A stretch of DNA of 64,000 nucleotides from NCBI RefSeq assembly GCF_000722875.1, contig NZ_JFHR01000015.1, forward strand, positions 1-64,000. Direction: 5' to 3'. The translations under genes were made by a program, and so were the position numbers. This document shows positions 35,692 to 36,651 of this stretch, piece after piece. The notes beneath the pieces were generated by a model. That model was not told the DNA's origin and ran no database searches. It worked only from the letters and a program-made list of their open reading frames with translations. Every line of letters starts with the position of its first letter. The stretch's first letter is position 1. This stretch comes from Sphingobium chlorophenolicum. GTDB lineage: Bacteria > Pseudomonadota > Alphaproteobacteria > Sphingomonadales > Sphingomonadaceae.

Positions 35692-36651
35692 ATGCACGGC
35701 TGGATCATCCTCGACAAACCCCATGGCCTTGGCTCGACCCAGGCGGTCAGCGCGGTGAAGCGCGCCCTGCGGCAAAGTGGCGCCGGCAAATGGAAGGTAG
35801 GCCATGGCGGCACGCTCGATCCGCTGGCGACCGGCGTCCTGCCGGTCGCGGTCGGGGAAGCGACCAAACTCGCCGGACGGATGCTCGACAGCGATAAAAT
35901 CTATGATTTCACCGTCAGCTTCGGCGTCCAGACCGACACGCTGGACCTTGAGGGCAAGCAAATCGCCGCCAGCGACCATCGCCCGACGCTGGCGGAAGTC
36001 GAAGCGATCTTGCCCCGCTTCACCGGCCCGATCGAACAGGCTCCCCCGGCCTATAGCGCCATCCTGATCGACGGCCAGCGCGCCTACGACCTCGCCCGCG
36101 CCGGTCGGGACGTGGAAATGAAGACCCGCGCCATCACCATCCACAACCTCGCCATCTCCTCGCCCCACCGGGGAGAGGATAGCGCAGCTTACCCGCAAAG
36201 CGGGTTAGCGAAGCTTGGAGAGGGGGAGGGAGCGAGGATTTCGGAAATCACCCTCACCGCCCATGTCTCCAAGGGCACCTATATCCGCTCTCTCGCCCGC
36301 GACATCGCGCTGGCGCTTGGCACGGTCGGCCATGTCACCATGCTCCGCCGCGTGAAGGCAGGCCCTTTCACCCTGGAATCCGCGATTTCACTGGACAAAT
36401 TGGACGAAGCTGCTAGGGGCGGCGGCATCGCGCAGCTTATGCTGCCGTTGACCGCAGGGCTGGACGACATCCCGGCTCTCGCAGTCTCTCCCGATGAAGC
36501 GCTGGCTCTCCGACAGGGGAAGGTGCTCGTGGGGAAACCGCATACCGGTCTCATGCTGGCGATGGAGGGCGCAACGCCCGTCGCGCTGGTGGAGGCCAGT
36601 GGCCCGGAAACCCTTAGGGAAATCAGGGTGGTGCGCGGCTTCAATCTCTAG
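35692..36651 (+). CDS. truB: tRNA pseudouridine(55) synthase with an in-frame palindromic insertion
   Basis: A 319-residue enzyme making pseudouridine 55 in the tRNA T-loop. The catalytic Asp43 lies in [10 protein letters not shown]; other motifs are [41 protein letters not shown] and [16 protein letters not shown]. Residues about 156-181 ([14 protein letters not shown] onward, to GEGEGA) are not typical of the family and are encoded by a double palindromic repeat that keeps the frame open. The insertion falls in a surface loop before the [15 protein letters not shown] strand, so the enzyme is probably active. Confidence 0.93.
36158..36215. repeat. Palindromic element inserted in frame within truB
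   Basis: Two hairpins: CCTCGCCCC with GGGGAGAGG (36158-36178) and AGCTTACCCGC with GCGGGTTAGCGAAGCT (36186-36215). The structure and GC-rich flanks (GGAGAGGGGGAGGGAGC follows) look like the intergenic repeats of this genome, but this copy is translated as part of TruB. Confidence 0.75.

Follow-up and report, generated by a model that had tools for sequence, protein, structure and literature searches.

Mobile palindromes that lie in frame inside genes are known mainly from Rickettsia, and a REPIN consists of two mirror halves. Three further species enter this account, Sphingopyxis alaskensis, Erythrobacter litoralis and Stenotrophomonas maltophilia. In the available part of an earlier survey (Di Nocera et al. 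2013, PMC3733652), REPs are listed in truB of these three species, RPE-1 is recounted as occurring in R. conorii truB, and the recB repeats of two Xanthomonas are described as sharing roughly one site, the repeats in other genes of this functional category as differing in position. REPs and an RPE in truB are already in print and our observation is not wholly new; what our literature search (open papers) did not return is an account of a single truB loop that is a hotspot for many repeat families, with turnover among them. The window that we analyzed, that is, the whole stretch of 64,000 nucleotides from Sphingobium chlorophenolicum, contains one such loop; its first-pass annotation missed that the same loop houses many different repeats in related species.

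The insert lies in truB, for which the whole S. chlorophenolicum genome contains a single match. The protein matches the TIGR00431 profile (220 bits; cut-off 151) and contains the PF01509 and PF16198 domains; its domains and catalytic region are intact as judged from sequence profiles and a structure match, from which we assume that the enzyme is active. The following features are referred to below.

35692-36651, + strand: truB, tRNA pseudouridine-55 synthase, 319 aa (profile and domain matches).
36127-36156, codons 146-155, + strand: beta strand before the insert, as predicted by the structure model.
36154-36234, codons 155-181, + strand: half copy of palindromic repeat family A, in frame, about 27 residues, 93% identical to the truB copy of G053.
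36157-36179, + strand: hairpin 1, TCCTCGCCCC acc GGGGAGAGGA, with one G-A mismatch.
36181-36215, + strand: hairpin 2, AGC, internal loop, GCTTACCCGC aaa GCGGGTTAGC, internal loop, GCT.
36216-36234, + strand: remainder of the half element (TGGAGAGGGGGAGGGAGCG), from comparison with full-length copies.
36235-36267, codons 182-192, + strand: beta strand after the insert, running into HVSKGTY, as predicted by the structure model.

The two in-frame hairpins are confirmed close to where the first-pass annotation had put them. The pattern of hairpin 2 occurs once in the window (0.00 occurrences expected by chance) and, with up to 3 mismatches, has no second match in the S. chlorophenolicum genome; a repeat search of 36000-36400 returned nothing. 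The identity of the insert comes from relatives: 36154-36234 corresponds to bases 1-81 of the 155-bp family-A element in truB of G053. In full-length family-A copies the counterpart of 36216-36234 pairs with the second half of the element, which is missing here and is retained in truB of several relatives (e.g., L096-L102); full-length copies of families A and F carry terminal inverted repeats. Two other loops (L105 and L106) retain just the outer arms of family A, as if the middle had been deleted. The insert is wider than the first-pass annotation had it, and the net gain, measured from PPAYSA to KGTY, is smaller than its estimate of about 26 residues: 18 residues relative to the commonest loops (58 residues) and 23 relative to 53-residue loops.

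With a looser search, a second family-A copy is found in the same genome (G000:C30:25598-25666; 75% identity, E 1.5e-5), located between reading frames that we named by eye as ribosomal L15-like and ribosomal S5-like, in a ribosomal-protein cluster. Family A has 2 matches in this genome (truB and the copy just described) and 4-13 in five other Sphingobium genomes, counts that include truB and in which a palindrome may score on both strands; it occurs outside truB in 6 of the 6 genomes searched (2-13 matches each), in agreement with the proposal that a sphingomonad repeat with related copies elsewhere had entered the gene. Family A is not high-copy in S. chlorophenolicum: a strict pattern identifies the truB copy only, and a short-pattern search for further copies in this genome gave 12 and 10 matches compared with 27 and 26 for the reversed control, that is, noise.

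The family-A insert is placed in the beta-hairpin turn that precedes HVSKGTY. In an AlphaFold2 model (35 sequences; mean pLDDT 86.7), residues 160-170, between strands 146-155 and 182-192, have values below 50; this suggests that the turn holding the insert is disordered. Among solved structures, the model is closest to E. coli TruB (1k8w; TM 0.80, normalized to the query length), and by sequence residues 165 and 166 of 1r3f chain A flank the site of the insert.

TruB was found in 94 of 94 Sphingobium genomes and read in 90 (the remaining four are G022, whose gene is split between two contigs; G067, with a piece at a contig start; G039, with a stop inside; and G080), and 35 further loci (L160-L194) were added; the TruB search for relatives kept the best 80 of 229 loci, mostly Sphingobium and Sphingomonas. 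The alignment of 170 loci represents 124 distinct TruB proteins (46 rows are identical to another). Interior insertions of at least 10 residues occur in 67 of these 124 proteins and are located solely in the turn before HVSKGTY (residues 158-177); the next largest interior insertion elsewhere in TruB is 5 residues. From PPAYSA to KGTY, the loop is 53-101 residues long in the genus and reaches 102 in another genus. The presence of the insert among relatives, a comparison that the first-pass annotation had singled out, is variable, with some TruB proteins having it and others not.

We sorted 80 of 123 loops into ten palindromic families: F is the commonest (27 loops), followed by A (19), C (8), H and D (7 each), K (4), B and E (3 each), and I and J (1 each); the other 43 loops were left unassigned. 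The letters are labels of the present analysis, set by pattern with some corrections by eye and with short remnants counted; some of the families may be related, namely A to F, B, C and K to one another, and D to E. Loci L115-L159 were omitted from the classification as repeats of the genus set, and a few other rows may duplicate; L085/L162 were relabeled from F to I and L107 from F to A, and assignments by eye placed L005, L008, L025 and L105 in A and L172 and L178 in F. All seven families that we searched for outside truB (A-F and H) are interspersed. For example, family F has 33, 63 and 6 matches in 3 of 3 genomes searched and family D has 16, 73, 26 and 5 in 4 of 4; no match to family D was found among the plasmids searched. 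Copies of B, C, E and H are located on sphingomonad plasmids, mostly with no listed gene beneath them (the gene table is incomplete), and family C has partial matches in other bacteria too.

Part of the variation in the truB loop is not palindromic. The loop of L073 (G081) has 89 residues (PPAYSA to KGTY) at the same site and neither palindromic arms nor a recognized repeat; L292 and L293, from other genera of the family, have in common a non-palindromic stretch, TAGRPDPYDPxAPL, that in L293 adjoins a family-C repeat. In two of the genomes that could not be read, the second truB part starts no more than 22 bases from a contig start, near the loop (G022:C16:12-422 and G067:C61:22-444), as expected if repeats break assemblies. 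In the loop of L066 (G070), Ns are present and the AYDLARAG motif appears a second time, probably through an assembly error around a family-F repeat.

In other genera of the same family, 3 of 3 members have long loops (81-102 residues); by eye, two of these hold a palindromic repeat (F-like in one, C in the other) and the third a stretch that is not palindromic. Among alphaproteobacteria outside the family, the loop has 53-54 residues in 12 of 13 readable genomes (17 were fetched, which are not a random sample because they were picked among the better-scoring rows); the L295 loop (G209, another family) has 66 residues with a low-complexity GEGEGEGE expansion. No long loops were seen by eye in the TruB proteins read from a class-level search and two small-genome searches (the family of G307 being 6 genomes).

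On a TruB tree built without the loop, in which 52 of 120 inner branches are open and from which L162 and L179 were omitted as duplicates, 53 label changes are needed for the ten families and 'none', or 28 for repeat vs none, counts that may be too high owing to recombination or loss. If the starred branches alone are considered, 'none' must change 14 times, F 9 times, C 7 times, and A and D 5 times each. Even truB genes that are nearly identical may differ in their loops: 11 of 15 flank windows show 0 differences between L108 (a 97-residue loop with family F) and L058 (a loop of 58 residues), and in L108 a full family-F element replaces the 36-bp empty loop of L058, that is, it is not simply added. 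Directly after the loop the two genes differ at 6 of 60 bases and then at 0 of 330 (of 390 bases); in those 60 bases L108 has 1 difference to L013 and 2 each to L011, L025 and L069. This pile-up of differences beside the loop fits the import of a short allele. Loop cassettes might then be spread by homologous recombination between the conserved truB flanks, with new transposition being rare, a possibility that we take seriously although we place it somewhat short of even and that overlaps the explanation preferred below; however, L058 and L108 also differ further upstream (6/60 and 7/60), the window comparison involves six query rows, and the occurrence of family F in two truB frames is not easily derived from one origin. 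As a separate observation, L003 (Sphingobium-like) and L185 (Sphingomonas) are identical at 60 of 60 bases directly after the loop, as a result of either codon constraint or recombination.

We then compared codon positions in 11 non-overlapping pairs of same-length inserts (families A, D, F and H; insert identity at least 75%), some of which may be separate insertions that diverged outside truB. Differences in the inserts are distributed evenly over codon positions 1, 2 and 3 (64/72/81 at 509 sites each; evenness p 0.37), whereas those in the flanks are 145/102/475 (2024 sites each; Fisher p 1e-13); for the three most alike insert pairs (L019/L024, L176/L192 and L081/L083), the values are 7/15/5 for inserts and 17/11/75 for flanks. 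Codon-level conservation of the insert is rejected by this even distribution. The inserted peptide would seem to be under no visible selection at the protein level beyond staying open and in frame.

Within truB, family F occurs in two frames (15 and 13 rows as labeled at that time), and families other than F and A occur in one frame each. For 31 copies outside truB we collected the open reading frames over them and scanned 10 with Pfam; the remaining copies may or may not be intergenic. Outside truB, family F is read in frame in three proteins of genome G062, in frames 2, 1 and 0, respectively.

L230:1134-2519, + strand: family F in frame in the linker of a PDH E2-like protein, between the lipoyl and E3-binding domains.
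L240:322-1983, - strand: family F in frame in the N-terminal domain of an Lnt-like protein.
L237:2-1663, + strand: family F in frame in the C-terminal part of a ThiC-like protein.

Because family F is used in several frames, it is a repeat that is short of stops and has no kept frame; the alternative that it keeps one coding frame is rejected. The lack of codon-position bias and the use of all three frames by family F leave the idea that the repeat evolves a coding frame unsupported. A loop shared by all sphingomonad TruB proteins, conserved at the codon level and lacking copies elsewhere, would have refuted the first-pass reading; this combination is not what we observe. The same data bear on the possibility of a function specific to TruB for the loop peptide, with selection for diversity: the rapid turnover at a single site of an RNA enzyme is in its favor, as is the report of RPE-1 and REPs in truB of unrelated bacteria (in the part of PMC3733652 available), but the inserts have no codon-position bias, and the different frames and families encode unlike peptides; we consider this the least probable of the alternatives.

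The hairpins themselves could be kept for the mRNA, that is, for stability or regulation of the truB-rpsO-pnp region. Folding of 36140-36240 is strong (-47.1 kcal/mol, z -3.2; 0 of 200 shuffles are as low), and in 12 family-A copies 96.4% of the stem cells are paired (reached by 7 of 500 shuffles) and 3 cells in 2 pairs are changed on both sides (reached by 6 of 500). However, 42 of 500 shuffles attain the covariation score and 494 of 500 the number of pair types, rows that are related can score above shuffles even without structure, and the 43 of 123 loops with no recognized repeat include some in near-identical truB genes; a role in the mRNA is very unlikely to be the reason that the repeats are kept.

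For mobilization, a Y1 transposase (Y1_Tnp) is encoded by 3 of the 7 genomes with copies of A, D or F, including G000, and one of the three genes has an internal stop; the other four genomes have no match, and two of these are rich in family F. No convincing copy of A or F was found within 1.5 kb of the three Y1 genes; a family-D match near the G000 Y1 gene is weak (E 0.005). A Y1 gene flanked by the repeat, the arrangement of a REPIN with its RAYT, was not observed, and mobilization by a RAYT is unlikely as the general driver. In 24 copies of A, D and F outside truB, no target-site duplication was seen: with ends taken from BLAST, and so crude, the longest direct match at the copy edges has a mean of 1.38 compared with 1.31 for mismatched flanks.

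This last result also concerns the possibility that the hotspot is one of DNA target, with the local sequence attracting the elements and protein tolerance being secondary. The occurrence of the large insertions at one place of the gene in 67 of 124 sequences is what such a target would produce, but several different families would need the same target, the empty loops differ in sequence, no target duplication is apparent, and other in-frame copies are located in unrelated genes; we judge it unlikely, and tolerance instead of target preference would account for the hotspot.

We conclude that the truB insert is very probably a tolerated landing of interspersed palindromic repeats in a disordered turn, with turnover. 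In S. chlorophenolicum, an interspersed, non-autonomous palindromic repeat would have landed as a truncated copy, in frame, in the beta-hairpin turn before SKGTY, inserted by some mobilizer; sphingomonad truB would repeatedly have taken up, swapped, shortened and lost different palindromic repeats at this turn, because the turn is disordered and tolerant, and the inserts would survive because it accommodates extra residues. Homologous recombination may have contributed to the spread by swapping alleles.

One loop of one housekeeping enzyme thus displays the process many times within one bacterial family, and empty, filled, swapped and shortened states coexist in close relatives, so the question of whether inserts are tolerated or useful becomes directly testable. 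The truB loops provide a library, made by nature, of insertions into one loop of an RNA-modifying enzyme; they also are a caution that peptides of this kind, when met in annotated proteins, may be translated repeats, not conserved domains. More tentatively, and with doubt outweighing confidence, the turn before SKGTY could serve generally, in different bacterial orders, as a permissive landing pad for palindromic repeats, with cassettes gained, swapped by recombination and lost fast enough that sister species have unlike loops. If so, truB would naturally keep a record of repeat activity, and the Rickettsia and Stenotrophomonas inserts would lie in this loop as well.

Compared with known systems, the full-length copies of A and F resemble REPINs in their two mirror halves; in contrast to REPIN/RAYT systems (PMC3116915, PMC2817692 and PMC8049555), a match to a Y1 transposase is lacking in 4 of the 7 genomes in which A, D or F occurs, although the S. 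chlorophenolicum genome has one. The repeats are like MITEs (PMC10969869, in the part available) in being short and interspersed with inverted arms, but target duplication is unseen in the truB families (with crude ends) and we identified no parent transposon. The REPs of Di Nocera et al. are likewise palindromic repeats inside truB, two of the three species being sphingomonads; those REPs are GTAG- or CGTC-tagged, whereas by eye neither tag is seen at the edges of families A, D, E, F and H (for family A, the true element ends are uncertain) and families B, C and K in other species start with CGTCA or GTCA, and the truB account, in the available part of PMC3733652, does not include one shared loop, many families or turnover. 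Finally, the sphingomonad repeats are like RPEs (PMC3733652 and PMC10969869, in the parts available) in being palindromic, interspersed and in frame inside conserved housekeeping proteins, truB among them; RPEs reportedly encode a conserved peptide, whereas the sphingomonad truB peptide drifts, with no one preferred frame and with family F read in three.
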